This document shows, in pieces, positions 1,770 to 35,124 of a stretch of DNA of 64,000 nt; position 1 is the first letter of the stretch, and every line of letters starts with the position of its first letter. A model generated the notes under the pieces. The model worked only from the letters and a program-made list of their open reading frames with translations. It did not search any database and was not told the origin of the DNA. A program made the position numbers and the translations under genes. The DNA comes from Lachnospiraceae bacterium 10-1 (GTDB lineage Bacteria > Bacillota > Clostridia > Lachnospirales > Lachnospiraceae): positions 722,782 to 786,781 of the forward strand of contig KE159799.1 of NCBI GenBank assembly GCA_000403495.2. Reading direction: 5' to 3'.

Positions 1770-3446
1770 TCAAGGTTTCCTCGAAAGCAGACAAACAGTC
1801 TCAACGTGTCTATCTTTATCCAAACTCAAATCCATCTTACTATCAATGATTGGCAGCTTAAATCCTATAGATTTCAGCCATTGTCCGTTAGCCTGCTCTT
1901 CCTCGTACACCTGAATCTCATCTATCAGGGCAGAAAGCAGATTTCTTTTGTCCGCCTCTTCCATTACCGCATATAGTTTATCAAAATAGATCAACACTTT
2001 ATATACATTATCGCCTGTCAGCTTTTCGGCTTCAATTGCCTTTTTCCTGTCCCGGCAGACCGCTATGCTTTTCTCCATATCGTCTATATTATCATACATC
2101 TTATCCAGTCTGTCCTGCAAGTCAGACAGCTTCCTGTCATAATGCCTGTCCTCAATATCCAGACTGTCTATCTGCCTTTCAAGGCTTCTTTTTGTGCCGA
2201 TGTACTGCCCTAACTGCTTCTGTAGATTTGAAATCTCTGTTTCGATTTCTGTGGTATCAACCTTCATATTGATCTTCTTCTGCATCATATCTGCAAATTT
2301 CGGGCTGCTTACAAGTTTGCTTATAACTTCCGCAACAGCATTATCCAGTTTTTCTTCCTGTAACTGCTTGTTAAAAGTGCATGAATGCCCCTGCAGCATC
2401 CTTCTATGCTTACACCCGTAATAAAAATAATCTTTATAGTGCTTTCCGTTCTTATTCTTAATCGACTTATTCCCATACATTCCAGAACCGCATATAGGGC
2501 AGCGTAACAGACCGGATAAAAGGTGTATCTTTTCATCCTTCCCCTTGTTTACATGCTCATATTTCTTAGCCTGTGCCTTTCTTTTTTCCTGTGCCGCCTC
2601 CCACAAATTCATATCAATGATTGCTTCATGGATACCGTCGCATAGCATATAATCATCCTGTTTTACAAGATGGTATTCATCTCTTGTCCCTACTTTCTTC
2701 TCCCTTTTCCTGCGCCCGAAAGCAATCTTTCCGCAGTATACCGGATTGTCCAGTATCGTCCTAATCAGATGTGCATCAAACATGGTATTGCTTCCGTTCT
2801 GCCTTGCTATCTTCTTTATTCCCTGCTGTGCCAGATACTTGGCGACACCATTGGAACCCAGCTCGGTATTTACATATTTATCATAGATAATTCTGACAGC
2901 CTCTGCTTCCTGTTCTTCGATTACCAGCTTTCCACTGACCAGCTTATACCCGTAAGGGGCAAAACCGCCATTCCACTTTCCCTCCCTTGCTTTCTGCTTC
3001 CGCCCTTCCATTGTCTGAACAAGGATATTCTCCCTCTCAATCTCTGCAACAGCAGACAGTACGGAGATCATCAGCTTGCCGGAATCTTTTGAACTGTCAA
3101 TACCATCTTCAACGCATATCAGATTCACACCAAAATCCTGCATAAGCTGTAATGAATTCAATACATCAGCGGCATTTCTGCCGAATCTGGACAGTTTGAA
3201 TACCAGAACATAAGAGACACCGTCCTTACCTGTTTCTATATCCTCCAGCATTCTTTTAAATTCTGCCCTTCCTGTGATTGACTTGCCGGATTTGCCTGCA
3301 TCTTCATACTCTCCTGCGATTTCATATTCAAACGCATCTGCGTATTTTCTTATCTTCTCTTTCTGTGCATCAAGAGAATATCCGTCTGCCTGCATGGAAG
3401 TTGACACCCTTGTGTACATATAGGCTTTTACTTTTTTCTTGACCAT
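1770..3446 (-). CDS. Large serine recombinase (element integrase)
   Basis: A 558-residue site-specific recombinase. The N-terminal resolvase domain (about 1-150) has the catalytic serine at residue 15 in YTRVSTSMQ, followed by KLSRFGRNAADVL and SAVAEIERENI. Next come the recombinase domain (about 160-290, starting GGFAPYGYK), a zinc ribbon (CPICGSGMYGN and later GCKH...GHSC) and a long coiled coil (about 395-470), as in TnpX/ICE-type integrases. The last residues HVETVCLLSRKP are encoded across the attachment core, so they are displaced rlmD codons. The ribosome binding site (AAAGGGAG) is intact, but an IS256-family element sits directly upstream, between it and the likely promoter. Expression is therefore probably reduced or IS-driven (inference). 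Confidence 0.93.
   Translation of the reverse strand: MVKKKVKAYMYTRVSTSMQADGYSLDAQKEKIRKYADAFEYEIAGEYEDAGKSGKSITGRAEFKRMLEDIETGKDGVSYVLVFKLSRFGRNAADVLNSLQLMQDFGVNLICVEDGIDSSKDSGKLMISVLSAVAEIERENILVQTMEGRKQKAREGKWNGGFAPYGYKLVSGKLVIEEQEAEAVRIIYDKYVNTELGSNGVAKYLAQQGIKKIARQNGSNTMFDAHLIRTILDNPVYCGKIAFGRRKREKKVGTRDEYHLVKQDDYMLCDGIHEAIIDMNLWEAAQEKRKAQAKKYEHVNKGKDEKIHLLSGLLRCPICGSGMYGNKSIKNKNGKHYKDYFYYGCKHRRMLQGHSCTFNKQLQEEKLDNAVAEVISKLVSSPKFADMMQKKINMKVDTTEIETEISNLQKQLGQYIGTKRSLERQIDSLDIEDRHYDRKLSDLQDRLDKMYDNIDDMEKSIAVCRDRKKAIEAEKLTGDNVYKVLIYFDKLYAVMEEADKRNLLSALIDEIQVYEEEQANGQWLKSIGFKLPIIDSKMDLSLDKDRHVETVCLLSRKP
1798..1804. other. Attachment core, recombinase side
   Basis: GTCTCAA, shared with 17776-17782. 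On the minus strand this is TTGAGAC within the final codons of the recombinase. Everything to its left up to the TGA at 1770 reads as the displaced rlmD 3' end (VCLLSRKP). Confidence 0.72.
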
Positions 3447-3460
3447 AAGCTATGCTCCCT

Positions 3461-3468
3461 TTTTGGTT
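3461..3468. repeat. 8-bp target site duplication, left copy
   Basis: TTTTGGTT directly precedes the IS left end and is repeated exactly at 4831-4838 after the right end. An 8-bp duplication fits the IS256 family (8-9 bp). Confidence 0.85.
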
Positions 3469-4830
3469 GATGACGTATAATAAGTTTCGCAAATTAATTG
3501 CATAAAAATAGACATGGTCTATAGCCGTTTGGTAGAATTAAGTCACCACAACAAAATTTGCCAAAGGAGGTATAGAACCATGTCTGATAACATTATACAA
3601 CTAAACGAGGACTTAATAAAGCACGATCTGAAAGACCTTGTCCGCTCCAGTGTGGAAGAGACTCTCAATACCCTGCTCGACAAAGAAGCGGATGAACTGG
3701 TCAACGCCCAGAAGTACGAACGTTCCAGTGGCCGTCAGGGTTACCGTTCCGGACATTATAAGAGAAATTTTCAGACCACAGCAGGGGAAGTGGAGTTAAA
3801 TGTCCCCAAGCTCAAAGGTGTCCCTTTTGAGACTGCCATCATCGAACGCTACCGCCGCAGGGAATCCTCTGTGGAAGAAGCCCTGATCGAGATGTATCTG
3901 GCAGGTGTCTCCGTACGCCGGGTAGAAGATATCACGGAAGCCCTTTGGGGGACCAAAGTATCTCCCGGCACGATCAGTAATCTCAACAAGAAAGCTTATG
4001 AACATATCGAGCAGTGGCGCAGCCGGCCACTGTCCGGTGACTATCCCTATGTCTATGTAGACGGTGTCTATCTCAAACGCAGCTGGGGCGGTGAGATCCG
4101 GAATGTTTCCATCCTTGTGGCCATTGGTGTAAACAGCGACGGATTCCGGGAGATCATCGGCGCAGCAGAAGGAATGAAAGAAGATAAAGAAAGCTGGCGT
4201 TCATTCTTTGTATGGCTTAAGGAGCGGGGACTTTCGGGAGTCAGACTGATCATCGGAGACAAAAACCTGGGTATGCTGGAGACCATTCCTGAGGTGTTCC
4301 CAGATGCCCGCTATCAGCGATGCACCGTTCATTTTTACCGGAACCTCTTCTCTGTTACGCCCCGCAATAAAATGAAGACAGTCGCTATGATGCTGAAAGC
4401 CATCCATGCCCAGGAGAGTAAGGAGGCCGCCCGTGAAAAAGCCCGCAGCGTATCAGACAAGCTCAAGGAGATGAAACTTTCCGCAGCAGCAAAGAAGCTG
4501 ACGGAAGGCATAGAGGAAACCCTTACCTATATGGACTTTCCTACCCAGCACTGGACGAGGATCAGGACCAACAATACCATAGAGCGGTTAAACCGTGAGA
4601 TCAAACGCCGGACAAAGGCGATTGGTGCGTTTCCGGATGGTCAGAGTGCTCTGATGCTGGTATGTGCCAGACTGCGCCATGTAGCCGGGACCCAATGGGG
4701 CACCCGTCGTTACATGAATATGGATCACCTCTCCAAACCGGAGGAGGAACTGCTGTCTGATATCATAGCCGGCTGACTATTGGCTGCCAAACGGTGGAAA
4801 TTAAATTTGCGAAAAAATCTTGACACTATC
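3469..4830 (+). mobile_element. IS256-family insertion sequence, complete
   Basis: The element is 1362 bp and bounded by the TTTTGGTT duplication. The two ends align over 22 bp as an imperfect inverted repeat: both start GAT, both have GT at positions 7-8, and both reach TTTCGC at the same distance, continuing AAATTAATT on the left and AAATTTAATT on the right. A second shared block, CCGTTTGG(T/C)AG, lies further in at both ends. It carries one intact transposase gene. It has inserted about 15 bp upstream of the recombinase ribosome binding site. The conserved ends and perfect duplication suggest a fairly recent insertion. Confidence 0.9.
3580..4776 (+). CDS. IS256-family DDE transposase
   Basis: A 398-residue mutator-type transposase. 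The start at 3580 has AAAGGAGG ten bases upstream; a longer in-frame ATG at 3514 overlaps the IS terminal region and lacks such a site. The DDE core is visible: the first aspartate in YVYVDGVYLKR, the second in IIGDKNLGML, followed by the family hallmark YQRCTVHFYRN, and the glutamate in NTIERLNREIKRR. The length is typical for IS256 relatives and no frameshift is seen, so the enzyme is probably active. Confidence 0.95.
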   Translation: MSDNIIQLNEDLIKHDLKDLVRSSVEETLNTLLDKEADELVNAQKYERSSGRQGYRSGHYKRNFQTTAGEVELNVPKLKGVPFETAIIERYRRRESSVEEALIEMYLAGVSVRRVEDITEALWGTKVSPGTISNLNKKAYEHIEQWRSRPLSGDYPYVYVDGVYLKRSWGGEIRNVSILVAIGVNSDGFREIIGAAEGMKEDKESWRSFFVWLKERGLSGVRLIIGDKNLGMLETIPEVFPDARYQRCTVHFYRNLFSVTPRNKMKTVAMMLKAIHAQESKEAAREKARSVSDKLKEMKLSAAAKKLTEGIEETLTYMDFPTQHWTRIRTNNTIERLNREIKRRTKAIGAFPDGQSALMLVCARLRHVAGTQWGTRRYMNMDHLSKPEEELLSDIIAG

Positions 4831-4838
4831 TTTTGGTT
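4831..4838. repeat. 8-bp target site duplication, right copy
   Basis: TTTTGGTT, identical to 3461-3468, immediately after the IS right end. Joining the two copies restores continuity between the recombinase ribosome binding site and the promoter-like sequence at 4866-4894. Confidence 0.85.
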
Positions 4839-4865
4839 TGGACATTGTATTTACGATATATTTAT

Positions 4866-4894
4866 ATTATACTGCTTTCTACTAATATGCACAA
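4866..4894 (-). promoter_or_regulatory. Probable original promoter of the serine recombinase
   Basis: On the minus strand TTGTGC (4889-4894), a 17-bp spacer and a perfect TATAAT (4866-4871) point towards the recombinase. Without the IS, the start codon would lie about 60 bp downstream of the -10 box. The IS now lies between them. Confidence 0.6.
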
Positions 4895-4926
4895 GAAAAA
4901 TATACGCAAAAACAAAGACCAGCGGC

Positions 4927-5061
4927 TTATTCAGTCGTTGGTCTCGGCGGATCTGGAAGACTTTCCAATTCAATTTTATCTCCATATTTTTCAATTAGAT
5001 AGGCTAACAGGTCTGCCAGTCTTTCCAGTTCTAAATCCACACTGTTGGTTTCCTTTCCCAT
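4927..5061 (-). CDS. Small acidic protein (44 aa) upstream of the recombinase
   Basis: A short open frame starting MGKETNSVDLELERLADLL and ending PDPPRPTTE. It is predicted helical in the first two thirds and has a proline-rich tail. It lies just upstream of the recombinase promoter in the same orientation. A small gene beside the integrase is common in such elements and can act as a directionality or regulatory factor, but nothing in the sequence proves that here. The ribosome binding site is weak (GGGTAG some distance upstream); a possible TATAAT lies about 50-60 bp before the start. Called on protein-like composition and position. Confidence 0.5.
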   Translation of the reverse strand: MGKETNSVDLELERLADLLAYLIEKYGDKIELESLPDPPRPTTE

Positions 5062-5166
5062 TGTTCTGATGCTGGGTTATTCTACCCTTAGTAAGTCTTA
5101 GATTATAAATTCACATCTTAAAAATTATATATAGCATACAGAATACGGGATAAGATTGTTAGGCAT

Positions 5167-5209
5167 AAAGATACCTATTTACACAAATTTTGCGTATCTT
5201 TGTAGGTAT
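5167..5209. repeat. Two overlapping inverted repeats in intergenic region
   Basis: AAAGATAC (5167-5174) pairs with GTATCTTT (5194-5201), and overlapping ATACCTA (5171-5177) pairs with TAGGTAT (5203-5209). The two foldings are mutually exclusive. The repeats sit between the wHTH remnant and the 44-aa gene. They may be an operator or a weak terminator of the minus-strand genes; there is no T-run. The rest of 5062-5284 is AT-rich without another gene. Confidence 0.4.
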
Positions 5210-5284
5210 TATGTTTTTTCGTTTATAAATTCCTTTCAACCAGTTAAAATATATAAGAAAATCCAGACAACTTACACAAAAAAT

Positions 5285-5551
5285 TTATTTAATAATCCAA
5301 CGCCCTTTCCTGCTTGAACCTTCATATACAAGCCGCTCTTCTTCTTTTAAATTTACAAGTGCCCTCTTAATTGTACTCATAGAACACCCCAGCTTCTCCG
5401 CCATTTCTTTCCGGCTGATGAGATTATTTTCTTTTATCAGTTCTATAATCTTTTCACTAATTTTATTTTGGGGTTCATCTCTATTCATGAAATCCGGATG
5501 GATTGGAATTTCCACAGTCACAGCCCGTCTGTCATCATCCGTAAAGAATCT
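5285..5551 (-). pseudogene. C-terminal remnant of an AlbA_2-type protein with winged helix
   Basis: The open part from a GTG at 5521 encodes 78 residues with a winged-helix motif (ISRKEMAEKLGCSMSTIKRA). The frame continues upstream as RFFTDDDRRAVTVEIPIHPDF until a TAG at 5552-5554, and no matching N-terminal domain precedes it. The segment TDDDR...IPIHPDF followed by a wHTH resembles the C-terminal end of AlbA_2/AAA_4 ATP-binding proteins. The wHTH is visibly related to that of the full-length AlbA_2 gene at 10558-11970. I read it as a truncated relic left beside the four-gene cassette. A short DNA-binding protein expressed from the GTG cannot be excluded. Confidence 0.6.
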
Positions 5552-5619
5552 CTAAGCAAATGCTACTACATTCATCCTCTGTTAATAATGCACCCACATC
5601 TATTCAATCTTCCAGCAAG

Positions 5620-6531
5620 CTATACCGAAAATCCCAATATTATATCGGAAGGAGCAACATCAACATAATTTTGACACTGATCGTTCCTATGTATATGTAT
5701 ACCTGATATCCCTTCTTTATTCAAGTATAAAACTACTAGTGACATTGCAAATATTAGAGGTTTAGGACCATCAGGCACAAAAGTAATACTTCCAATATTA
5801 GAATATTCTATCGCTATTTCACATAATTTTGAAAACATAAATGAAAAATCTTCAAAGTAGAAGGATAACTCACCTACTGCTTTTGATATTATTTGTTGAT
5901 TTAATTTATTTACATTTTCACCTCTTTCTGCATTTTCGCGATCATATGCATTACATGTAATATAAGAATCCGGATCTATTTCCGAAATAATTGCTTTTGT
6001 TCTTATAAAATCATAACTAAGACCAAATACATGCACTCTCCTTTCCTCAGTTCTTAATGACGGTTTTCCAATAACTGTATATGTATCTATCCCTGCTGTA
6101 GGATATGCGGTATAATCAATCGGATATTTTCCTACCACATACCAAAAATATGTCTTCCCTTTGTATTTATTCAATAATATCGGTAAATTATAATACCAAC
6201 TTCGTGGCATGGAAGAATAGTCAATATGTACTCTCAATTCACTGTTATCTTTTCTTTTTTTCTCCACAAAACTACATATTGTATTCTGAACAGATTGCCC
6301 TGAGTTATATGTAGATTCAATACAATTAACTTCGTTTCTCTTTAATTCATTTATTTTTTTCTTGTCACTATAGTCATCAAAAAAGAATACTAATATATTA
6401 TCGTTTTGCATCTTGCTTTTTATCTTATCAAATAAATATAATGATCTTTTTTCATAACCAAATGCACAAACAAAAATATCATTTTCTTGAATGATATTTT
6501 CCTTATATTTTTCATTTCTTATTTGCTTCAT
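5620..6531 (-). CDS. Unknown two-lobed Rossmann-like protein, last gene of the four-gene cassette
   Basis: 303 residues, no family recognised with confidence. Two alpha/beta lobes are suggested. Lobe 1 (about 17-150) has the strand-turn FVCAFGYEKRSLYLFDKI and a conserved-looking VHIDYSSMPRSWYYNLP. Lobe 2 (about 160-300) has VHVFGLSYDFIRTKA and ITFVPDGPKPLIFAMSL. The D/G-rich GPKP turn followed by a helix recalls ligand-binding loops of CARF/SAVED-like Rossmannoid sensors, but that is only a resemblance. The start overlaps the end of the ATPase gene by 20 bp, with GAGG nine bases before the ATG, so the two are translationally coupled. It is strongly AT-rich, like its operon. It may be the effector or sensor of the system (inference). 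Confidence 0.75.
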   Translation of the reverse strand: MKQIRNEKYKENIIQENDIFVCAFGYEKRSLYLFDKIKSKMQNDNILVFFFDDYSDKKKINELKRNEVNCIESTYNSGQSVQNTICSFVEKKRKDNSELRVHIDYSSMPRSWYYNLPILLNKYKGKTYFWYVVGKYPIDYTAYPTAGIDTYTVIGKPSLRTEERRVHVFGLSYDFIRTKAIISEIDPDSYITCNAYDRENAERGENVNKLNQQIISKAVGELSFYFEDFSFMFSKLCEIAIEYSNIGSITFVPDGPKPLIFAMSLVVLYLNKEGISGIHIHRNDQCQNYVDVAPSDIILGFSV

Positions 6532-8296
6532 CTCTCATTACCTCAAAAATAGTTAGTTGATTTGGATCAACATAATTTTTCTTTTTTATTTTTCCCTTTA
6601 CCGCATATGAATTGGTATTTATATCTTCTAATTCAGGAATAGAGATTGGAACATCGCCACGTATAGGCAGCCAATACTTTACTGCATATGCACATGATAG
6701 CATCAATTTAGACGATTTTGAAATCCCTCTACGCTTCGTTTCATCGTCTGTAATTACTCTAGAATATGCAATCGCAACTTTCAACCACTCATATGATCCA
6801 TCTGATACTGTAAAATTCAATCCACCTGTAACAAGGTTTATTCCATGCACCTTTTCATAAAGCTTCTCTGAGATGGCATTTAGTTTTTTATATGCCTCTG
6901 GACCATTTTTTTGCAGTGCTTTGGTAGATTCACAGATATCACAGGCAAATTTATATATTACATCATGCTGTGCTCTAGTTGTTAATTTAGTTTCCCTTGC
7001 TTTGTCAAATAAACTGCACATAATTTGTATAAACATTCGAGGATTCCCTTGGCTTACTTTTCTAATTGTTTTTACACCTGCAAACCATCCAGGTTTGTTA
7101 TTGCCTTTCTTAGCAATCTTATGTACCTCTCGCAAGAAAAATATCGGCGCATATTTGTCATAAACAGTTTTCCTCAAATTAGAATAATTAGGTGCATTTT
7201 CTCTTCTTTTTTCTGGAAAACTTTTTATTATTTCCTTTTCTATCACTTCATACGAAGCCCTATCATCCTTAACAATTTCCCTATAATAATCAATATAATC
7301 ATCGTTTCCGATTTTGCCAACAAAATCTTCTAAACCAATACAATTACTATCCTTTTCAAATCTACTATTTATTCTATGCCTGCATAATTTATCTGTTAAC
7401 CTAATAAAATCGTTGCTGCTATAATCCATATCAACTATTTTATAAGAAAAATCATTTCCATCTGAAACACTTATACCTTCTTCCAAAGTTGTCAAAGTTT
7501 TATGATAGAATGGCAAAGTTGCAACCTTTAATGCTATTCTATTAGAATCCGATCTAAATATGTTATTTATACATTTTTGGCATATTTCATTTAAAAACTC
7601 CGCTTCATCAATACATATGATCCATGTTGGCTCTGTTTTAAATTCCAAGATATGGCTTATACTATTTTTAACAGATAATAATGTAGAACATATTTGTCTA
7701 CGAAAAACTACTGGTATTGATGTTTCATTAAAATTTATCCAATCTATATTGTAGTACATTTTGTCAATTTTCTCTCTAAGATCTTCAAAATCGCATATTT
7801 CAGATTGATCATCTCCAAACCATATATTATTTAATTTTTTCACTAAAGATACTCTTTTTCGAGCTTTTTCAATTACATCATCCACTTCCTCTAACATTGA
7901 ATTTAATTCAACCATAACAGAATTCGCTAATAAGCAGTTGAACAATACTTGAAAAAGAAGTATTTGCATTTTCTCTGAATTAATCCCATTCAAGGGCGCA
8001 ACAAATTCCAAATGCATTGGAACATATAAGGCTATAAATTCTTTCTTTTTAACTAACTCTGCCGCACGACTATCTTCTACTGTCTTAATCATGGAATATC
8101 TCATCATTTTTAGCAAAAATGTTTTTCCACATCCTCTAGAACCCAGTAGAATCTCGTGTTGATCATTAAATAAAGTCCAAAATAAAGAAATCGGTAAAAA
8201 TTCACTGGTAACTTTTTCATCCGAAAAATTACGAGCCTGACTATCACTAAATGGATTCTGCCCAGTATATCCTTTTATTTTGTCTGAAAATGGCAT
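6512..8296 (-). CDS. ORC/CDC6-like AAA+ ATPase of the four-gene cassette
   Basis: 594 residues. An N-terminal NPFSDSQARNFSDEKV lead-in is followed by Walker A GSRGCGKT (residues 52-59), Walker B WIICIDEAEF (D230, E231) and a sensor-2-like RKVSQGNPRMFIQIM (GNPR at about 417-420). The C-terminal third is probably a helical or winged-helix region. The layout matches the ORC/CDC6-type P-loop ATPases seen in bacterial defence loci rather than transporters or helicases. It starts 10 bp after the phosphoesterase stop with AAGGAG before the ATG, and its end overlaps the next gene, so it is in the middle of a tight operon. Likely role: an ATP-dependent switch or loader that senses DNA and controls a partner (inference). 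Confidence 0.82.
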   Translation of the reverse strand: MPFSDKIKGYTGQNPFSDSQARNFSDEKVTSEFLPISLFWTLFNDQHEILLGSRGCGKTFLLKMMRYSMIKTVEDSRAAELVKKKEFIALYVPMHLEFVAPLNGINSEKMQILLFQVLFNCLLANSVMVELNSMLEEVDDVIEKARKRVSLVKKLNNIWFGDDQSEICDFEDLREKIDKMYYNIDWINFNETSIPVVFRRQICSTLLSVKNSISHILEFKTEPTWIICIDEAEFLNEICQKCINNIFRSDSNRIALKVATLPFYHKTLTTLEEGISVSDGNDFSYKIVDMDYSSNDFIRLTDKLCRHRINSRFEKDSNCIGLEDFVGKIGNDDYIDYYREIVKDDRASYEVIEKEIIKSFPEKRRENAPNYSNLRKTVYDKYAPIFFLREVHKIAKKGNNKPGWFAGVKTIRKVSQGNPRMFIQIMCSLFDKARETKLTTRAQHDVIYKFACDICESTKALQKNGPEAYKKLNAISEKLYEKVHGINLVTGGLNFTVSDGSYEWLKVAIAYSRVITDDETKRRGISKSSKLMLSCAYAVKYWLPIRGDVPISIPELEDINTNSYAVKGKIKKKNYVDPNQLTIFEVMRDEANKK

Positions 8297-8306
8297 AATT
8301 ATCTCC

Positions 8307-9524
8307 TTACTTTTTTAACAAAACTACTTGTTCTGGAAACTTTCCAACCACATTGTGTGTTGGTCTTAAGATCTCTTCAAAAAAGTTATTTAATTTATTA
8401 TATGGCATAAATTGTAAGCATTCATTTAAATCCTCCCAATGTAAAATGTGATTCTCCAAATTTTTATAATTTTCTATAGTAGCTACAATTTCATTTTTAG
8501 AATATATTTTCCCCACTTTCATTACTGTATCTATTGGTGTTTCCCTGCAATATTTATCAATTTTTTCCCATCCTGCTACATCTGTAAATTTATAATTATG
8601 TACTATATAATAACTTTTCCCCTTATCTATATCCAAGAAATGGACAGTATTGGGGATAAGCATATCGCCTTTATTTCTATGTTCCGCATTTACTGATAAA
8701 CTACCTGCACATATCATAACTATCGGTTCAGTTCCACTTTCAATTTGAATGGTTTCAACACGCGGATGATGTCTGTGTCCATGTATGATAATGTTAATGC
8801 CATTCTGCGATGCAATCTCCATTAATTCTGCCCCTTCTTCAATTGTTGATATATCAATTCCCGGCATAGGATAGGGATAATTAATCGGATGATGATGCAT
8901 TAGCAATATTTTAATTCGATCATCACTTTTATATTCTCTACTAATTTCTTCGAACCATTCCATTTGATCCCGTTCTAATTTTCCATGTGAAAATTGTTGG
9001 TCACGAGTGCAAAATCTTCCTGAATTAAGCACAAATAAAACAAAATCATCTTTTTCAACAACCCCTGAAAAAGGTGCTGGACCATAAGCATCATAGTTTT
9101 TCCCTAAATACTCCATATTTAATTTTGCACAATTCGCTGCTATCATTTGATATTTACATTTGACAATCTTCCCTACTTCTTTGCTCACATTTTGAACATT
9201 AATCCCAAGATCCGAAATACTCCAATCAATATCATGATTTCCCAATACACAAAAAATGTTATTACATTCTACACCAGTCCTCTTTGCGATATTAAGTATT
9301 TCCTGTTCACAATAATAGAACTCTTGTGGGTTTCCTAATGAAGTCAAATCACCTGCTACAAAAAAATATTGAGGGTTCATTTCATTAAATAACTCTATTA
9401 ATCCTTCTTTTAGCGAATATATCCCTTTGCTCTTATCTTGAACTTCTTCTCCAGGCATGTAAAAGCCCGATGCTCTACAAAATTCTCCAAAATGTATATC
9501 GCTTAGAATAGCTATTCTACTCAT
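8307..9524 (-). CDS. Calcineurin-like metallophosphoesterase of the four-gene cassette
   Basis: 405 residues. All metal-binding motifs of the family are present: SDIH (D9, H11), AGDLTSLGN (D59), LGNHDID (N96, H97, D98), LLMHHHP (H210-H212) and HGHRH (H248-H252), so the enzyme should be active as a two-metal phosphoesterase or nuclease. The last 130 or so residues form an extra C-terminal domain without a recognised match. Its start overlaps the methylase gene by 8 bp. The substrate cannot be told from sequence; DNA ends, a nucleotide signal or a modified phosphate are all possible. With an ATPase next door, a nuclease role analogous to Mre11-type enzymes is conceivable (inference). Confidence 0.88.
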   Translation of the reverse strand: MSRIAILSDIHFGEFCRASGFYMPGEEVQDKSKGIYSLKEGLIELFNEMNPQYFFVAGDLTSLGNPQEFYYCEQEILNIAKRTGVECNNIFCVLGNHDIDWSISDLGINVQNVSKEVGKIVKCKYQMIAANCAKLNMEYLGKNYDAYGPAPFSGVVEKDDFVLFVLNSGRFCTRDQQFSHGKLERDQMEWFEEISREYKSDDRIKILLMHHHPINYPYPMPGIDISTIEEGAELMEIASQNGINIIIHGHRHHPRVETIQIESGTEPIVMICAGSLSVNAEHRNKGDMLIPNTVHFLDIDKGKSYYIVHNYKFTDVAGWEKIDKYCRETPIDTVMKVGKIYSKNEIVATIENYKNLENHILHWEDLNECLQFMPYNKLNNFFEEILRPTHNVVGKFPEQVVLLKK

Positions 9525-10359
9525 GCTTCTCTTTCCTCTTACTTTGCTTCTTATTTGAAGTAATCATTAGTTCCTTAACTTTTCCTCTTTTATCTGCTTG
9601 TCCTGCTATATTACTTGAGCGTTGAAGAATATGAACGTAAAATCCATCGTTTTTATACATTTCTATTATTTCCTTACAATATACATTTGTTAATACAATT
9701 TTAGCGCCTCGTGCCTTTGCATTAACCAACGCCTCATGTAATCTTAATTGATCTTGCCATACAAATAATTCATCATTATATTTAGTAAAATTAGCTTTTC
9801 CACTTGTGGCATATGGCGGATCTGCAAAAATAAAATCATTTTTCTTTGCTTTATTTATAATTTCATAAAAATCTCCACATATTAATGTAGCATGCTTCAA
9901 ACAATCAGCATACTGATCGAACTGGTCAATATCATACGTAAAATTATTTTTTGTCCCAATCGGCACATTAAATTTCCCTTGCTTATTGACTCTATACATT
10001 CCATTATAACAAGCACGATTTAAATAAAGTAATCTGCCTGCACACTTTAAATTATCAGTTAACATTACATCCCTTATCTTATAATAATGCTCTTTAGTAT
10101 GCCTTTCTTGATGGTATACTAATTGTCCTTTCAATTCTTTAGGATTGTCGCGCATTATTACATAAAGATTTATTAATTCTTTATTTATGTCCGAAAGTAT
10201 AGCCTCCTTAGGTTGCAATGAAAAGAATACTGCTCCGCTACCTAAAAATGGCTCTATATACATATTATATTCTTTGGGGAAATATTCTTTATATTTTTTT
10301 GCAAGCCATCTTTTTCCACCTGGCCACTTCAAAAATGGAACTATTTGCTTATTCTGCAT
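9517..10359 (-). CDS. dam: Dam-like (D12 class) DNA adenine N6-methyltransferase
   Basis: 280 residues. It has the D12-class SAM-binding motif FLKWPGGKRWL (residues 9-19), EPFLGSGAVF (36-45), the catalytic DPPY (180-183) and the class-typical LYLNRACYNGMYR. Family members methylate adenine, often in GATC; the target here is not shown by sequence. It is the first gene of a four-gene minus-strand operon and overlaps the phosphoesterase. Its 198-bp upstream region is AT-rich with no clear -35/-10 pair; AAGGTG precedes the ATG. No cognate GATC endonuclease gene is adjacent, so it may mark self DNA for the other three proteins (inference). Confidence 0.9.
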   Translation of the reverse strand: MQNKQIVPFLKWPGGKRWLAKKYKEYFPKEYNMYIEPFLGSGAVFFSLQPKEAILSDINKELINLYVIMRDNPKELKGQLVYHQERHTKEHYYKIRDVMLTDNLKCAGRLLYLNRACYNGMYRVNKQGKFNVPIGTKNNFTYDIDQFDQYADCLKHATLICGDFYEIINKAKKNDFIFADPPYATSGKANFTKYNDELFVWQDQLRLHEALVNAKARGAKIVLTNVYCKEIIEMYKNDGFYVHILQRSSNIAGQADKRGKVKELMITSNKKQSKRKEKHE

Positions 10360-10557
10360 TTTACACCTTATTTGCCTCTCTCTTCTGTTCTACCCAAGTA
10401 TTTATAAAATCCGGTTATTTCAATTTGTTAAAAACATTAATTATCTGGTTCTTCTAAAATCAAAGGTTTCAAACAGTATTTTTCTGAAAATATTCTGACT
10501 GTCCTTAACTTATTTAGAGCAGGTCACTACTCCCCTCAATTTCTTTGCAAATAACCT

Positions 10558-11970
10558 TTATAGTCTCCAATATCCTCCGCGAGCACCACCTATTCTTTCC
10601 AAAATATTTTTTTCCTGCATCTCCTTAATGCTCTTTTTAATCGCTCTTATAGTAATATTCAATTCCTCCGCCATTTCTTTTTGTGTCACCCTTGGATTAT
10701 CCATAATCATCTCTATTATTCTTTGTTGTGTCTGGTTCAATCCTTTTGGTGAACTTTTTGGTGAACTTTTTGGTGAACTTTGGTGAACTTCACTATACGA
10801 AGGTCTATATAAATTTACCCGAAAGCTATCTCCTATTTCGAGCAATTCCGGCTCCCTAATTCCATACTCTTTGCAACTGCTAAACATTCTTTTAATGCCT
10901 GTTCCCCAGCTTTCAATAATTTTCATCCTACTGAATATTTCTGCAATACATCTATTGCGAATTTTAGAACCACCTTCTTTAATCTGCTTTATTGTAAGTC
11001 CTCCGTACAGCATTCCCGGCGAAGTGATTTCCACTCTGTCATCATACACTGCTACCTGTACACACGCTCTGTCTAAAAAATTTCTATGCGTTGTCGCATT
11101 AACGATAGCCTCTCTGATTGCTTCTGTTGGCAGTTCATATGCATCTGTTCTTACCAGTCCATTTATCTCTGCTCCAAGATTGATATGCTTTAATACAAAT
11201 TCATATGCTTCTTCTATTTGCTCATAAAGCGGACCGGAAAAATCTCTCTTATCAATGAAAACAACTCTTTCTGTGCCTTTGAATAATGCACATTGGATTT
11301 TTGCAAATGGAAATGCATTATTTGTCAAAAGTACAAAGGCATTCGTTGGAACCAAAGTCCCATCTAAATTTTTAACGATTCCCCAGTTTATGAGATTCTG
11401 CAAAGTAACATCTTTTACTTTCTCCTTTTCACTTTTGGTTTTTGCTGCTTCGACCATATATTTCTTTATAGCAGCACATAACTCTTCTGCCTGCTTAATA
11501 TCAAATTTCTGCTCAACACAGACCATCTCATCAAAAGAATGATTAGATCCCTGCAGCTCCAAGTCTTTAAGAATTGCCGCATCAGCAGGTCTGGATGTCC
11601 CTGATACCCGTATAAAAGTACCCGCTTCTTTTCCAAGCGATTTCATATAATATGGTCTGTTTGCTCCCGGATATATTTCGATAACAATCACGCATTTACC
11701 CTCAACAGTGTCAACACCAATATTGGGGAAGATTTGTGGGTAACACATATCTGAGATAGTATTTGTTATACTATCCATAATTTTAAATACTTCGTCTTTA
11801 TCGACACCTACAATTTCATGGATTTCATCATCAACACCAATAATAATTTTTCCACCTGCCGTATTAGCAAATGCAATGACGCTTTTAATATATTTTTCAC
11901 TTCTTTTAGGTACTTCAACCTTAAATTCGATATTGGCTGACTCCCCTGCTTTTATTTCATCGGCTAACAT
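10558..11970 (-). CDS. AlbA_2-type ATP-binding protein with C-terminal winged helix
   Basis: 470 residues. An AlbA_2 domain (about 1-130; GESANIEFK, AFANTAGGKIIIGVDD, GTFIRVSGTSRPAD) is followed by an AAA_4/GHKL-like region (about 280-390; LPTEAIREAIVNATTHRNF, GMLYGGLTIKQI, WGTGIKRMF) and a winged helix at the end (VTQKEMAEELNITIRAIKKS). The start at 11970 has AGGAGG seven bases before the ATG; a longer frame lacks this. The linker before the winged helix is a microrepeat encoding SSPKSSPKSSPK, with DNA units spaced 12, 12 and 10 bp. Such proteins are common in defence islands and are thought to regulate transcription. A truncated relative lies at 5285. Confidence 0.88.
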   Translation of the reverse strand: MLADEIKAGESANIEFKVEVPKRSEKYIKSVIAFANTAGGKIIIGVDDEIHEIVGVDKDEVFKIMDSITNTISDMCYPQIFPNIGVDTVEGKCVIVIEIYPGANRPYYMKSLGKEAGTFIRVSGTSRPADAAILKDLELQGSNHSFDEMVCVEQKFDIKQAEELCAAIKKYMVEAAKTKSEKEKVKDVTLQNLINWGIVKNLDGTLVPTNAFVLLTNNAFPFAKIQCALFKGTERVVFIDKRDFSGPLYEQIEEAYEFVLKHINLGAEINGLVRTDAYELPTEAIREAIVNATTHRNFLDRACVQVAVYDDRVEITSPGMLYGGLTIKQIKEGGSKIRNRCIAEIFSRMKIIESWGTGIKRMFSSCKEYGIREPELLEIGDSFRVNLYRPSYSEVHQSSPKSSPKSSPKGLNQTQQRIIEMIMDNPRVTQKEMAEELNITIRAIKKSIKEMQEKNILERIGGARGGYWRL

Positions 11971-12097
11971 TGCTCTACCTCCTGCGTTTAATATCTGTAA
12001 CGCTGACAGTAACATTTTCTATAATTACAAGTGCCATATTTCGCCTATATATCCAACACCAATCACAACATCCGAATCCCTTTCATTTTTCTAAGTT

Positions 12098-14767
12098 TTA
12101 CAGTTCTCTCACAATATCCATAAATCTCTCATGGGAATATGCTCCTTCATAATCTGGATTCTTTGTCTGAAACACCATATAATATTTATACAATCTTCCT
12201 GTCATAGACGCCTTTGCTGCCCATTTAGCGCCTGTTTCTGATTTAATCTTTGACTCATCATTCTTCAATTGGTCGCCTTTCGTCTCAATCAGCAGAATCT
12301 TTCCGCTATTCGTCATAGCAATCAAATCCGGATATGCAGTAACCGCCCCGTTAATAGCAAACCCTTTCCTTGCTATATTACGATGCCACCATTTAATATT
12401 TCCCAATGCAGATAATTCCCAAACAACCTTTTTCTCATATTCATTGTCAAACTGTTCTTCTTCCACATACAATGACTTAGGAATAGAAGATATCGTTTTT
12501 GCTGGAGCAATGGATTTTTCCAGGTGATACATGGGTTCACAGGTAATATGCTCTTGTTCTAACAATTTATCAAATTGACTGGACGCATATTCATCTAAAA
12601 GCCGGTTAACTTTCTTTTCTATTGCAGACATATATGGATAATAGGATTGCTCCAAATCCGTCAATTGATCCTCCGTCATATTATCCATAATGCGACCTAC
12701 ATACTCGTCTAATTCATTGTCGTTGATTGCATTATTTCTTGAAATCCTTTTGCATATCATGTCCTTGCACAGTCTACGTTTTTTCTCTGATGGTTGTACA
12801 TCAAACCATTCTTTCATATGAATATTGTCATACCCTTTGACCTGAAAAGCCTTAGGAATCCCATCTGTCGAATCTTCCACATCCACCCTCGCCATTTCCA
12901 CATCAATTACATTGAAATCTATCTGGATGTCCTTATCTTTTAATGTAAATCCTTTATATAAATTTTCCTTTTCCAACAAAACAATTTCATGATCTGAAAA
13001 TAAAGTAGGCTGTGTTTCCACAACAAATTGCGGTATTATTAACTGCATGGCTTCATCAGCAAACTCATTCTTAATGGAATACGTTTTCATCTTCGCCTTC
13101 ACCTCGTCAGGAATTCCCTCTAACATTATAGATTCATTGTGGTTAAGTTCTTCCAGATAAACAGCATTTTGTATTTCTGCTTCTCGTACCATATGCAATG
13201 TCTTTGCATCTAACTCCTCCAAATGATAAATTTCTTCACCTGATCTATCCTGCAAAATATCAAAAAGCTGTCCTTTTAAAAAATCCGTATTTACTGTAAA
13301 ATCTTCCCTCTCTGATGTAGACTCTTTACTTTCCTCATAGTTCTCAATATGCATCTGGATTCTACTGCCTACATCAGATATTCCACTATCATTTTCTGTT
13401 TCTTCCGGTATTCGATAATCTTTACTGCTGAATCCCGCCACATTCAACCCCTCAACGACTTTTTCGCATGTTGCAAAGAAATTAGAAGAAGAGGTAATCA
13501 CATATGACAGATTCATTACCGTACTTTTATTCGCTTTTGCATCAGGCATCCTCAATATTCTACCTAAAATCTGCTCCACTTCAACAACAGAACTCCGGTT
13601 TGCTACCGTTGCAAGGATATATGCAAAGGGACAGTCCCATCCCTCTTTCAGGGCATTAACAGTAATGATATACCTAATTTTACAGTCTTTGGCTAAAAGA
13701 TTCTGGTTTCTTAGATCATCCCTATCGGCAGTCTTAATGGCAATCTGTTCTTCTGGTACACCGATTTCTAATAATGCTTTCTTTACTTTCTCATAGGTTG
13801 TACTGTCCTGCTGATTTTTAGCTTCCGCTTGAAACAATACAATTGGGCGTATATATTTGCCTGTCTGTGCTTCTTCCTTCTTAGCTTCATTTTCTAATTT
13901 TTGCCGCAGGCTTATGGCACTGATAAACACGTCGTCCTGCGTTCTCCTGTTATAAACAATAACCGGGAGTTTTATCATCTCTTCCCCTTTTAATTGCTTT
14001 GCATCAACAAAAGAAATAATATTGCTCCCTTCTTTAGGGGTAGCAGTCAAATCCAGCACAAATGAAGGATTGAAATTTTCCAACATTTCTATACTAAGTT
14101 TTGAAGTGGCATGATGGCTTTCATCTACAATTATTACAGGATTCAGTTTCCGAATAACCTGAATCAATGCAGTTTCATCTGTATCTGCCAATAGCAAAGC
14201 CTGCTCTGTTTTATAACCCTTAAAGGCAGCCAGATACCCGTTTTCCTGATATGCCTTTCTTCCTTCTTTTTTATTTGTACGGAAAGAATCATAGCTTAAA
14301 ACAAAAATAGACAACTGTTCATCTACACTGGCTGGATTAAATTTTTGTCCATTAAGCAGCTGCTCCTTCGTATATACCTCCACGTTACCAGGAAAATCGG
14401 CATTTATACGTCTTCTATACGGATGTTCCACATTCTGCAGTGCCGCAACAGTCTGATTTAAAATTGCATCGGATGGAACAAGCCATACGACCGCCACTGG
14501 ATGAATATGAGGCATGGAATCAAAAATGGGCTTAATTGAACTTGCTGCAAGAAATGTTTTTCCTCCGCCTGTCGGCACCTTAAAGCACACATGCGGTACA
14601 CCATGCAAAACCATATTATAATGCGGCATGCCTGTCTCGCCTATTTGAACACCTTTTTCTTCCCAAAGCAAATTGTATGCCTGCCTTATACTCTGTTTTT
14701 CTGTCAACAATGCTAAAAATCGACATAAATCGTTTAAAACTATTTTTTGATAAGTTTTCAATTCCAT
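12098..14767 (-). CDS. res: Type III restriction enzyme, Res subunit
   Basis: 889 residues, a superfamily 2 helicase/endonuclease. It shows Walker A FKVPTGGGKTFLAASS, the DEAH-box variant IIVDESHHA, motif III LDLTATP, motif VI QILGRILRMP, and a C-terminal PD-(D/E)XK nuclease YPDLIAM...ILLIETKGD. The length and order are typical of type III Res. It starts 12 bp after the Mod stop with AAGGAG before the ATG, so it is co-transcribed with mod. It cuts DNA when two unmethylated target sites are found, using ATP-driven translocation. No frameshift is seen. Confidence 0.94.
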   Translation of the reverse strand: MELKTYQKIVLNDLCRFLALLTEKQSIRQAYNLLWEEKGVQIGETGMPHYNMVLHGVPHVCFKVPTGGGKTFLAASSIKPIFDSMPHIHPVAVVWLVPSDAILNQTVAALQNVEHPYRRRINADFPGNVEVYTKEQLLNGQKFNPASVDEQLSIFVLSYDSFRTNKKEGRKAYQENGYLAAFKGYKTEQALLLADTDETALIQVIRKLNPVIIVDESHHATSKLSIEMLENFNPSFVLDLTATPKEGSNIISFVDAKQLKGEEMIKLPVIVYNRRTQDDVFISAISLRQKLENEAKKEEAQTGKYIRPIVLFQAEAKNQQDSTTYEKVKKALLEIGVPEEQIAIKTADRDDLRNQNLLAKDCKIRYIITVNALKEGWDCPFAYILATVANRSSVVEVEQILGRILRMPDAKANKSTVMNLSYVITSSSNFFATCEKVVEGLNVAGFSSKDYRIPEETENDSGISDVGSRIQMHIENYEESKESTSEREDFTVNTDFLKGQLFDILQDRSGEEIYHLEELDAKTLHMVREAEIQNAVYLEELNHNESIMLEGIPDEVKAKMKTYSIKNEFADEAMQLIIPQFVVETQPTLFSDHEIVLLEKENLYKGFTLKDKDIQIDFNVIDVEMARVDVEDSTDGIPKAFQVKGYDNIHMKEWFDVQPSEKKRRLCKDMICKRISRNNAINDNELDEYVGRIMDNMTEDQLTDLEQSYYPYMSAIEKKVNRLLDEYASSQFDKLLEQEHITCEPMYHLEKSIAPAKTISSIPKSLYVEEEQFDNEYEKKVVWELSALGNIKWWHRNIARKGFAINGAVTAYPDLIAMTNSGKILLIETKGDQLKNDESKIKSETGAKWAAKASMTGRLYKYYMVFQTKNPDYEGAYSHERFMDIVREL

Positions 14768-14779
14768 TGTAATGTCTCC

Positions 14780-16378
14780 TTACAGTTTCACAATATCCCT
14801 TGGTATTTTCTTAAAAGTGATATTATATTCCTGCAACTTTTTCTCTGAAATAGAACATAAATCCGCATAAATCACATAATAATCAGCTTTCGTTTTTATT
14901 TGCTCCAGAAAATCATTATCCAAATTAGTTACTCTTTCTTTTTCGTAATATAAGTAATATGCTGTGTCATTATATTTAGAAAGGTAGTATTTTGTATCAT
15001 CACTTTGGATGGACATATATTCCGTTCTCGTTTCCGTATACCAAACGTATTCCCTTATTTTTTCTAAATCAATGTCAGGATTAAATGTTCCATTATCTAA
15101 AAACATTTTTTCTCCCAATTCATAAAAACTAAAATTGCCGCCTGTTCCTTCTACCTTCTTTTTATCCTCGCCATATCCCTTAATTACACGTTTGGCACGT
15201 TCCGCTGTTATACTGTCTGCATAATCCATCATCTCAATAAGGATAAATTTCCGATTACCGCCATCCGCTTTATTCATATTGAGCACCGCATGGGCTGTTG
15301 TTCCAGAACCTGCAAAGGAATCAAGGATAATGCTATCTTTGTCTGAAGCAATTTGTATAATTCTTTCAATTAACCGACTGGGTTTGGGTGTCGGAAAACC
15401 TATGATTCCCCAACTCTTTAGTTCATTTGAAGCCCCCTGTGTATGGCCAACGTCATCATAATGCCACAATGTTCTATTTACAACCCCTTCATGCTCATAC
15501 AAAAACTTTTTAAATCGTGGATATTTTGCTTTTCCATCGTTCCCCCAAAATAATCTTCCTTCCGATTGATATATCTTCGTTTGTTCTTTCGAATACTTCC
15601 AAACTGCGGTAGGTTTAGGATATACTAATTCTCCCGTAAACGGATTTTCAATTGGATAATATAAATTAGGACGCTCGTTATTAGACTTATTGCAAGTATA
15701 TGTTGCTGAATTCCATACTCCTCTTTTATCATTATCCGGGTTTTGATAATACCTCATCTGTTTTTCATTTAATCGAAGTCTGTGAGGTGCCCAAATGTCC
15801 TTTTTCTTTACATATACCAATATAAACTCTATATCACTGCTAAAATATCTTGCATCATTAGAAGGAGATGCTTTTTTAAACCATGAGATTGTATCAATAT
15901 AATTTGCCAAACCAAAAATTTCATCACATATTATTTTTAAGTAATATAACTCATTATCATCAATACTAATAAAAATAGCTCCATCATCTGACAATAATTT
16001 CTGTAACAATCGTAATCTTGGATACATCATACAAATCCATTTATCATGCCTTGATAAGTCTTCGCCCTCTTTACCTACTACTTCTCCAATCCATTTTTTC
16101 ATTTGCGGACTGTTTACATTATCATTATAAACCCAGCTTTCATTTCCTGTATTGTAAGGTGGATCAATATAAATACATTTAACCTTTCCCTCATATTTTG
16201 GTAATAGTGCCTTCAGTGCTTCCAAATTGTCCCCATGTATTATCATATTTTCACTATGATTATTTTCTTTTGTTTCTCCTTTTTCATCATAGCTGTATTC
16301 TCTCTCCAACACTCGATAGGGAACTTCCGAATGATGATTGATTACTTTATCTTTTCCTATCCAGTCTAACGTAGGCAT
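14780..16378 (-). CDS. mod: Type III DNA methyltransferase, Mod subunit
   Basis: 532 residues, beta-class N6-adenine methylase. DPPYNTGNESW is the catalytic motif (about residues 70-80), and DSFAGSGTTAHAV is the SAM-binding motif in the C-terminal half. The stretch between them holds the target-recognition domain, which sets the sequence specificity. The ATG at 16378 has GGAGG five bases before it; an upstream GTG would lie inside that ribosome binding site. It is followed directly by res and preceded by a small helix-turn-helix gene. There are no simple-sequence repeats, so no sign of phase variation. Confidence 0.94.
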   Translation of the reverse strand: MPTLDWIGKDKVINHHSEVPYRVLEREYSYDEKGETKENNHSENMIIHGDNLEALKALLPKYEGKVKCIYIDPPYNTGNESWVYNDNVNSPQMKKWIGEVVGKEGEDLSRHDKWICMMYPRLRLLQKLLSDDGAIFISIDDNELYYLKIICDEIFGLANYIDTISWFKKASPSNDARYFSSDIEFILVYVKKKDIWAPHRLRLNEKQMRYYQNPDNDKRGVWNSATYTCNKSNNERPNLYYPIENPFTGELVYPKPTAVWKYSKEQTKIYQSEGRLFWGNDGKAKYPRFKKFLYEHEGVVNRTLWHYDDVGHTQGASNELKSWGIIGFPTPKPSRLIERIIQIASDKDSIILDSFAGSGTTAHAVLNMNKADGGNRKFILIEMMDYADSITAERAKRVIKGYGEDKKKVEGTGGNFSFYELGEKMFLDNGTFNPDIDLEKIREYVWYTETRTEYMSIQSDDTKYYLSKYNDTAYYLYYEKERVTNLDNDFLEQIKTKADYYVIYADLCSISEKKLQEYNITFKKIPRDIVKL

Positions 16379-16405
16379 AGTTTCCTCCACATATAATTGA
16401 TTAGA

Positions 16406-16579
16406 TTATTCCTTGGTGTGTTTCTTTCGTGGATCTTGTGGCTTTTGGGCATTTTCTGGTATAAGCCATACACTCCCCTTTAATACTGCACCTTGAATCC
16501 GGTTCTCTTTGCAGTAAATCTGTATTCGACGCTGTGATATTTTCCATTTCTCTGATAATTCCTTAGTTGTCAAATATTC
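16406..16579 (-). CDS. Small excisionase/MerR-like helix-turn-helix protein
   Basis: 57 residues from the ATG of MEYLTTKELSEKWKISQR; GGGAG precedes it. It contains a MerR/excisionase-type winged helix-turn-helix (TTKELSEKWKISQRRIQIYCKE) and the typical end SVWLIPENAQKPQDPR. Small proteins of this type are often found directly upstream of R-M or other operons in Clostridia. They are likely autoregulators of the operon, or directionality factors when near an integrase. It precedes mod by 27 bp in the same direction. A longer version from a GTG at 16663 (85 aa) is possible but has a poorly spaced ribosome binding site. Confidence 0.72.
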   Translation of the reverse strand, partial: EYLTTKELSEKWKISQRRIQIYCKENRIQGAVLKGSVWLIPENAQKPQDPRKKHTKE

Positions 16580-16749
16580 CATTTTCATCTCCCATGAATT
16601 TATCAAATCATTAATAATATTATATTCGTTACCGCGAATACTTTCAACCACATTTTTACTCACTCCATAATTCTTGAAGAAAATATTGGCATTCCCATCC
16701 CAATTTTAGCCTTAGCTCTTTTTTGAAAAAGGCGTTCTACAGAACACCG

Positions 16750-16787
16750 CAAGATACGCATTTCGTGGGCACGAAATACTAATCTTG
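16750..16787. other. Nested hairpin resembling a transfer origin (oriT)
   Basis: CAAGAT (16750-16755), four unpaired bases, ATTTCGTG (16760-16767), a GG spacer, CACGAAAT (16770-16777), four bases, then ATCTTG (16782-16787): a perfectly symmetric nested palindrome. It is followed by TCGGGG and a second small hairpin GGGG-agtaa-CCCC (16790-16802), then a C-rich run. Hairpin plus GC-rich nic-like sequence is the usual look of oriT in mobilizable elements of Clostridia. No relaxase gene is present, so the assignment is inferred. Confidence 0.5.
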
Positions 16788-16835
16788 TCGGGGAGTAACC
16801 CCGAACCCCCTTCAAACCCCTAAATTTTCAATAAT

Positions 16836-17127
16836 AGCGCCAAATGTTATAAATTTGACGCCAGTCTTCTATTTTGTGACGCCAATTCAGCTATTTTTTA
16901 CGCCAGTTATTTTTTTACTGACATCAATCCATCATAAATTGACGCCAGTAAAATATTCACATTTTTTTGTGACAGCATCCGGCTGTCATCTTCTATGTAA
17001 AAAAAGATCAAATGACATCAAATACAACTAAAATGAAGTCAAATTTCAAAGTTAGGATATCAAATCTCAATATTTGAAATCACCCGAAAATAACCTACAA
17101 TCAAGTTATCATATTTTGAAATCATCC
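16836..17127. repeat. Array of short repeats phased at exactly 21 bp, in two blocks
   Basis: Block A has nonamers at 16836, 16857, 16878, 16899, 16920 and 16941, each 21 bp apart, with consensus GACGCCAGT (variants AGCGCCAAA, GACGCCAAT, TACGCCAGT, GACATCAAT). Block B has GACATCAAA at 17014, GAAGTCAAA at 17035 and GATATCAAA at 17056. It continues more weakly at 17077 (AAATCACCC), 17098 (CAATCAAGT) and 17119 (AAATCATCC), again every 21 bp. The blocks are 73 bp apart, about seven helical turns, so all sites face the same side of the helix. Between them lies the inverted repeat TGACAGC-ATCCG-GCTGTCA (16970-16988). It looks like a multi-site protein-binding array: centromere, iteron origin or relaxosome. 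Confidence 0.75.
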
Positions 17128-17129
17128 GC

Positions 17130-17246
17130 ATACTTTGCCCCCTGCATTGTATTGGGGAGAACATCCACTGTCAAGTATTTTAGTCCTAGCCGAAAATTCT
17201 TGACAGCGGATGCCCTCCCCAATAAGTGATAGCCAAGGCAAAGTAT
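17130..17246. repeat. 117-bp imperfect palindrome with four matched blocks
   Basis: The left arm blocks are ATACTTTGCC (17130-17139), TTGGGGAG (17152-17159), CATCC (17162-17166) and CTGTCAAG (17168-17175). The right arm has their exact complements in reverse order: CTTGACAG (17199-17206), GGATG (17208-17212), CTCCCCAA (17215-17222) and GGCAAAGTAT (17237-17246). The central loop is 23 bases. Non-matching spacers between the blocks (12 against 14, 2 against 2, 1 against 1) are almost the same length, which suggests selection for structure. No gene is present. The rest of 17247-17404 shows nothing I can name. Confidence 0.7.
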
Positions 17247-17404
17247 ACGGAGATATCGGCAACGCCGCACTTCCTTACAATAACATTACTTAAAGCCTGA
17301 TAATTAAAAATGTACTAAGCTCCACTGTTCCAAGATTTTCGGCTCAGTCCATCTATCTTCCTGTCCCACATCACCTTCCGCTTATTATATCTTTCATTGA
17401 TTCA

Positions 17405-17438
17405 CAGCATGTTACGCCACTTACCACATAACATGCTG
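17405..17438. repeat. Perfect 10-bp inverted repeat downstream of rlmD
   Basis: CAGCATGTTA (17405-17414) and TAACATGCTG (17429-17438) flank a 14-base loop, 40 bp after the rlmD stop on the minus strand. There is no T-run, so a classic terminator is unlikely. It may be an operator or an RNA-stabilising hairpin belonging to the element end. Confidence 0.5.
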
Positions 17439-17477
17439 CATCTTTTCCGCAAAATATTTACTTCTCCATATAGTTCT

Positions 17478-19217: not shown

Positions 19218-19230
19218 ATTCTTCTCCTTG

Positions 19231-34984: not shown

Positions 34985-35124
34985 ATCAAAATCCTCCTTG
35001 TTTTCCGAAGGAAAATCCGAGCCCCCTTGGCGAGGAGAGGATTTATCCTCCTTATTTTTTGTTAAAAAAAATCGATGCTTCCTTCCGCGCACCGACTACC
35101 TCAAAAATATCTCTTCATCGGATA

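Follow-up and report, generated by a model that had tools for sequence, protein, structure and literature searches.

The locus studied here is a four-gene operon on the minus strand of Lachnospiraceae bacterium 10-1 (assembly GCA_000403495.2, contig KE159799.1), at positions 5620-10359 of a stretch of 64,000 nucleotides (722,782 to 786,781 of the contig) that we refer to as the window. The listing of open reading frames (ORFs) of the window gives four consecutive ORFs, abutting or overlapping, all on the same strand: the first codes for a Dam-type N6-adenine DNA methyltransferase (9517-10359, 280 aa), the second for a calcineurin-like metallophosphoesterase (MPE), the probable effector (8307-9524, 405 aa), the third for an ORC/CDC6-like AAA+ ATPase, the probable switch (6512-8296, 594 aa), and the last for a predicted free-standing tandem CARF protein of clan CARF6, the probable nucleotide sensor (5620-6531, 303 aa). 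The Dam and MPE genes overlap by 8 bp, a 10-bp gap separates the MPE and ATPase genes, and the ATPase and CARF genes overlap by 20 bp, exactly the arrangement that the initial annotation had described. The marked AT-richness claimed there was also found, in such a way that the GC content rises from 0.31 in the operon to 0.36 in 10360-17477 and to 0.405 in the window outside 1770-17477, that is, 31% in the operon against 40% outside the island. Its parts list of a methylase, a phosphoesterase and an ATP-driven switch agrees with the family matches of the proteins.

The first protein belongs to the Dam family, with 248.1 bits against NCBIfam TIGR00571 (dam, cut-off 114.85) and 177 bits against Pfam PF02086 (MethyltransfD12), and it carries a DPPY motif at residues 180-183. 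Its nearest solved structure is DpnM (2dpm, 187 bits), and an alignment with DpnM and E. coli Dam, read at the residues that we take to contact DNA, looks compatible with GATC specificity. It is the sole TIGR00571 match in its own genome, which therefore has no second Dam.

The MPE scored 66.9 bits against PF00149 (Metallophos, cut-off 21.5) and has the two-metal ligands of the calcineurin-like family. Across the 13 independent loci described below, N96, H97, H210, H248 and H250 are kept in all 13, and D9, H11 and D59 in all 12 readable ones, as a contig end cuts off the N-terminus of the protein in locus L055. In the fold comparison SMPDL3A/B and Rv0805 were among the leading folds, and SMPDL3A/B, Lmo2642, Rv0805 and the YydD-YydB entry all ranked higher than Mre11. 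The protein had been annotated as a nuclease or a phosphoesterase; the second term is supported, and the fold resembles nucleotide and lipid phosphodiesterases of the SMPDL3A/Rv0805 type somewhat more than it does Mre11-type nucleases. Its best NCBIfam family is the DS9_1 anti-phage phosphoesterase (NF053862), at 89.9 bits and far from the equivalog cut-off of 420; the same family came out best for all seven other operon MPEs tested, with 32.5-106 bits, likewise far under the cut-off. No model named Calcineurin-CE was among the Pfam matches of the window proteins. Since the genome holds ten PF00149 genes, an MPE as a neighbor is not expected by chance.

The ATPase matched PF24389 (ORC-CDC6-like) with 389.8 bits over residues 14-553 and over positions 1-571 of the 571 of the profile (cut-off 27), so that it is a full-length member of the family. 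The Walker A residues of GxRGxGKT (52-59), the Walker B residues D230 and E231, and R420 are found in 13 of the 13 loci. The earlier statement that the motifs of three of the proteins are intact is thus upheld, the catalytic and ATPase residues being kept in the alignment across loci.

The fourth protein had been described as an unrecognized Rossmann-like protein, a view that we rejected, as the PADLOC model PDLC01921 of clan CARF6 matches its whole length (residues 1-303) with 490 bits and a tandem CARF fold is predicted. No Pfam or NCBIfam family matched it, and a sequence search against solved structures gave nothing usable. The structural model points to a free-standing tandem CARF protein, with Can1 as the closest relative, in which an N-terminal unit (approximately residues 17-135, minus strand 6127-6483) and a C-terminal unit (approximately residues 163-289, minus strand 5665-6045) both have approximate borders. 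The available text of PMC4012209 gives as the mark of a CARF domain either the signature [DN]X[ST]XXX[RK] or a basic residue after strand 4, and the Rossmann-like CARF fold of the window protein agrees with it: D104, S106 and R110 form the signature at the end of strand 99-104 of the first unit, and K257 follows soon after strand 247-252 of the second. These pocket residues (with S or T at 106) are each present in 13/13 loci, and the model suggests that the protein may bind a nucleotide ligand. Neither it nor the ATPase carries a recognized effector domain in the family scans or, for the CARF protein, in the structure prediction, in contrast to the fused effectors of Can1, Csm6 and other CARF effectors of type III CRISPR systems. 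A ligand made by a CRISPR system is unlikely: Csm1-type Cas10 (TIGR02578) exceeded its cut-off in none of the 13 carrier genomes, with weak matches under the cut-off in eight, and in 3 of 14 controls, several carriers being metagenome-assembled genomes and the Cmr2 type not having been searched. When the phylum was searched with PDLC01921, two of 398 genomes matched, and the second, G282, was taken as a chance match (E-value 8.9e-4, within a 2245-aa frame).

The conservation of the set was then analyzed in 13 independent loci, namely the window, eight loci from species genomes and four from plasmids. The MPE, ATPase and CARF genes are adjacent in all 13, and a Dam homologue accompanies them in 12, once split; as the loci were recruited through the ATPase or the MPE, these counts measure what accompanies this ATPase subtype. 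The carriers belong to Bacillota, Bacteroidota, Nitrospinota and Pseudomonadota, and the operon occurs both on chromosomes and on plasmids. The ATPase alignment, searched against the species-genome collection, gave the eight loci (one of them, L050, being again the G547 locus described below), and in each the three genes are adjacent in the same order and a Dam homologue is present. The methylase gene lies upstream in five (in L052 split in two frames) and upstream with one gene in between in L051. In L055 (Nitrospinia) and L056 (Bacteroidota) it has changed sides and yet been retained, lying downstream of the CARF gene. The intervening gene of L051 (L051:6386-8758), which separates dam from the MPE gene, codes for a 790-aa DGQHR/DndB/DpdB-like protein.

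The plasmid loci are from Methylobacterium, Cupriavidus, S. meliloti and Pseudoalteromonas; two near-identical S. meliloti plasmids were counted as one, and a second Bradyrhizobium plasmid match (H2) was left out. In a converse check, the Cupriavidus ATPase and the Cupriavidus MPE matched the same five plasmid records. The CARF protein of the window found no match on plasmids, and those of L059, L060 and L061, missed when compared with it as single sequences, were identified by the PADLOC CARF6 models. Directly upstream of the MPE gene in the Pseudoalteromonas operon (L061) lies a gene (L061:3958-5802) for a 614-aa protein to which Pfam, PADLOC and NCBIfam gave no match. The window MPE matched four plasmid records, those of the two S. 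meliloti plasmids, with the whole operon, and one each from Simplicispira (L081:4998-8473, beside a GASH protein) and Nostoc (L082:2394-8458, beside a NACHT protein). The latter two matches span 26-29% of the window MPE and both plasmids lack the ATPase, so these proteins were rejected as members of the system and taken as domain relatives that belong to other conflict settings. Calcineurin-like phosphoesterases are presented as the commonest effector in GAP1-N1/GASH systems in the available text of PMC7159879.

The divergence of the partners is also coupled. Over the 11 loci for which the four genes could all be read (in one, a contig end truncates the MPE), Mantel correlations were 0.98 for MPE-ATPase, 0.96 for MPE-CARF and 0.98 for ATPase-CARF, and 0.85-0.87 between Dam and each of these three; the shared ancestry of the hosts contributes to these values. 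With a threshold E-value of up to 1e-25, the MPE profile was found in two of 391 genomes of the class, the same two that have the MPE-type ATPase. On whether homologues occur together or mostly apart, the point proposed at the outset as a possible refutation, the relatives of this subtype remain together, and elsewhere the MPE has only domain-level relatives. Among relatives of the genus, family and order the only match was in the genome itself (1/98); no relative was found in the viral_contigs set with single proteins or alignments, and no ATPase match in the phages.

The same ATPase family was further searched for with PF24389 in partly overlapping samples of the phylum (398 genomes), the class (391), the class of G482 (82) and the class of G177 (3). 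Long matches (E-value up to 1e-10) were found in six genomes, the own genome (G000), G482, G177, G547, G792 and G884, and 76 of the 79 matching genomes of the phylum sample were weaker and dropped from the tally. A CARF6-type protein is encoded directly downstream of the ATPase in 6/6, as called by PADLOC in five and by a phmmer match to the window protein (255 bits) in G547. The gene directly upstream varies, being an MPE in two genomes, a PRTase-CE in three and an HD-CE in one. A methylase adjoins in five of the six and is of four kinds, Dam, N6 (PF02384), N6_N4 (PF01555) and C5 (PF00145); in G884 none was seen within 17.5 kb. Thus, the window operon shares with the ORC-CDC6-like/CARF6 loci (PF24389, PF24390, PF24391; PADLOC CARF6, PRTase_III-A) the ATPase family, the CARF clan downstream, an effector upstream and the usual methylase, and differs from the PRTase-CE and HD-CE loci in having a calcineurin-like MPE in the effector position and a methylase of the Dam type, and no match to PRTase-CE (PF24390). 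Compared with L033 and L034, its ATPase is 19-21% and its CARF protein 17-23% identical. In the trees, the branch that sets the MPE-type ATPases apart is weakly supported (73/41), and the CARF protein of the HD-CE locus groups inside the MPE-type CARFs; the trees thus do not establish that the MPE variant arose once. Six of the 76 genomes with weak PF24389 matches exceed the family cut-off, and the ORFs around these plus one more were listed (L035-L041). A partner scan of the distant relatives in L036, L038 and L040 found no CARF6; in these and in L037 the ORC-like ATPases adjoin small proteins without a known family, and in L038 also an N6 methylase.

The initial annotation proposed a candidate new defense system. 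The conserved unit bears out part of this proposal, but "new" is probably too strong, since Pfam names ORC-CDC6-like, PRTase-CE and HD-CE in consecutive accessions (PF24389, PF24390 and PF24391) and all three were found on the same chassis. The consecutive accessions suggest that one study described the three families together, and the class of operon has probably been predicted already, with this operon as a further member. Nicastro et al. (NAR 2023) reportedly named Calcineurin-CE, HD-CE and PRTase-CE conflict effectors. In a literature search that left the likeliest surveys outside (Makarova 2020, Burroughs and Aravind 2020, Nicastro 2023), no published description of the Dam-MPE-ORC-CARF set was recognized, which is no proof of novelty.

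Several known systems have parts in common with the operon. In the DS-8 and DS-9 systems of DefensePredictor, the available text of PMC13092281 reports that metallophosphatase mutants lose defense and likens the DS-8 enzyme to SMPDL3A, which is also among the leading folds for the window MPE; the partners named there are a NACHT protein in DS-8 and a HAD phosphatase in DS-9, in contrast to the ORC, CARF and Dam proteins of the window. With BREX the operon shares a methylase and an ATPase, BrxC being assigned to the ORC/Cdc6 clade in the part of PMC12839542 available, whereas the other BREX parts are absent among the four operon proteins in the Pfam scan. PADLOC gave for MADS only matches to mad8 and mad2, with E-values of 0.0015 and 0.0027.

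The operon, an AlbA_2/HATPase gene (10558-12015) and a type III restriction-modification (R-M) operon (12098-16390) all lie between a serine recombinase gene (1770-3446) and a 23S rRNA methylase-like gene (17478-19247), presumably rlmD, which bound the island. The location in a mobile defense island with a type III R-M operon close by is therefore as first annotated, except that the AlbA_2/HATPase gene separates the two operons. In the congeneric locus L075, an Eco57I-type methylase gene, an AAA_21/RloB pair and a YhcG nuclease are found instead downstream of rlmD, and in the congeneric locus L076 a recombinase closely related to that of the window lies 8 kb downstream of it; on the evidence of these two loci, the genus seems to have an integration hotspot downstream of rlmD, where the defense cargo varies. 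L050, L052 and L054 also have serine recombinases close to the operon. A decayed winged-helix C-terminus similar to the one encoded by the AlbA_2 gene lies at 5270-5490 on the minus strand; genes of the same kind thus stand on both sides of the operon, one intact and one broken. An AlbA_2-like gene is also near the Cupriavidus operon (L059:9432-10847). In L049 a PstI-type restriction enzyme and methylase (L049:810-3207) are encoded directly upstream of the four-gene operon. Elsewhere in the window there are two neighboring copies of the Clostridiales-1 RNA (RF01699; 19268-19539, minus strand), one barely above the gathering score, and a lysine riboswitch (35115-35302).

A role of the operon in defense is likely, and we infer this role as well as the trigger, the methylation gate, the CARF ligand and the MPE substrate. 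The reading that we prefer, and to which we give an even chance of being right, is that of a methylation-guarded abortive system against phages (or plasmids) that attacks nucleotides, in which the ATPase-CARF pair releases the MPE. The Dam-type methylase, whose motifs are intact, would mark GATC-like sites of the host. The ORC/CDC6-like ATPase, as an oligomerizing, DNA-sensing AAA+ switch, may scan DNA together with the tandem CARF protein and respond to foreign DNA that is unmarked or actively replicating. The CARF protein, with its fold and conserved pocket, could act as a second gate through a nucleotide ligand, either as a threshold sensor or as a brake, and the freed MPE, whose active site is complete, would then hydrolyze free or cyclic nucleotides and stall the infection, probably at the expense of the cell. 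The effector position appears interchangeable, a PRTase-CE or an HD-CE replacing the MPE on the same ATPase-CARF6 pair; because of this exchange on one chassis, the position can be read as that of the effector and its target as likely nucleotides. According to the available text of PMC12839542, nucleotide-targeting systems have phosphoesterases that drain nucleoside triphosphate pools. A strict methylation gate is harder to reconcile with three of the loci, L052, L061 and L048: L052 and L061 have no intact Dam gene in the operon, and in the Pseudoalteromonas plasmid operon L061 there is none within 13 kb.

Other explanations share part of this evidence. The MPE could be a DNA nuclease of the Mre11/SbcD type, loaded by the ATPase on unmethylated DNA as in R-M, with Dam protecting the host and the CARF protein as a regulator, but we hold this unlikely, given the four entries that outrank Mre11 in the fold comparison, the fact that PRTase-CE and HD-CE, neither of them named as a DNA nuclease, can take its position, and the failure of the Pfam and PADLOC scans to reveal in any of the four proteins a restriction endonuclease domain such as a classical R-M system would have. 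If the MPE instead destroyed the CARF ligand, it would be an off-switch and the ATPase-CARF pair the effector arm; this would fit its fold, which is near to those of Rv0805, a cyclic-nucleotide phosphodiesterase, and SMPDL3A, which according to the available text of PMC13092281 cleaves cGAMP, and also the conserved pocket residues of the tandem CARF. This reading is somewhat less likely still, as no effector domain was seen in either member of the pair, and the PRTases that replace the MPE in other loci belong to a class called probable retron effectors in the available part of PMC9122126.

An addiction module that stabilizes a mobile element, with the loss of Dam unleashing the MPE and no action on phages, would agree with the occurrence on plasmids and near serine recombinases; we consider it improbable, since some loci lie alongside R-M genes, the site of the window holds other defense genes in a relative, and the operons of L052 and L061 persist without an intact Dam gene. 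That the four genes are neighbors by chance in a gene-dense mobile region, with unrelated functions, was rejected and is given next to no weight: the adjacency holds in 13/13 chromosomal and plasmid loci over four phyla, most junctions overlap, and the proteins diverge in a coupled manner.

A more specific version of the methylation-guarded reading, tentative and clearly less probable than it, is that the operon is a CRISPR-free second-messenger switch, in which the ATPase reads DNA methylation and the free-standing tandem CARF protein co-gates an interchangeable effector, be it MPE, PRTase or HD, that destroys nucleotides. If so, the marking of self and non-self DNA would control the depletion of nucleotides rather than the cutting of DNA, and the CARF ligand would be made by no cyclase of the operon. 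The compact plasmid operons of Sinorhizobium, Cupriavidus and Methylobacterium offer a direct route to testing. Should the methylation-guarded model hold, cells would be protected by a DNA methylation mark from the nucleotide-destroying effector that they themselves encode, which would unite the principle of R-M with that of abortive infection and would show that CARF sensing can operate without CRISPR.

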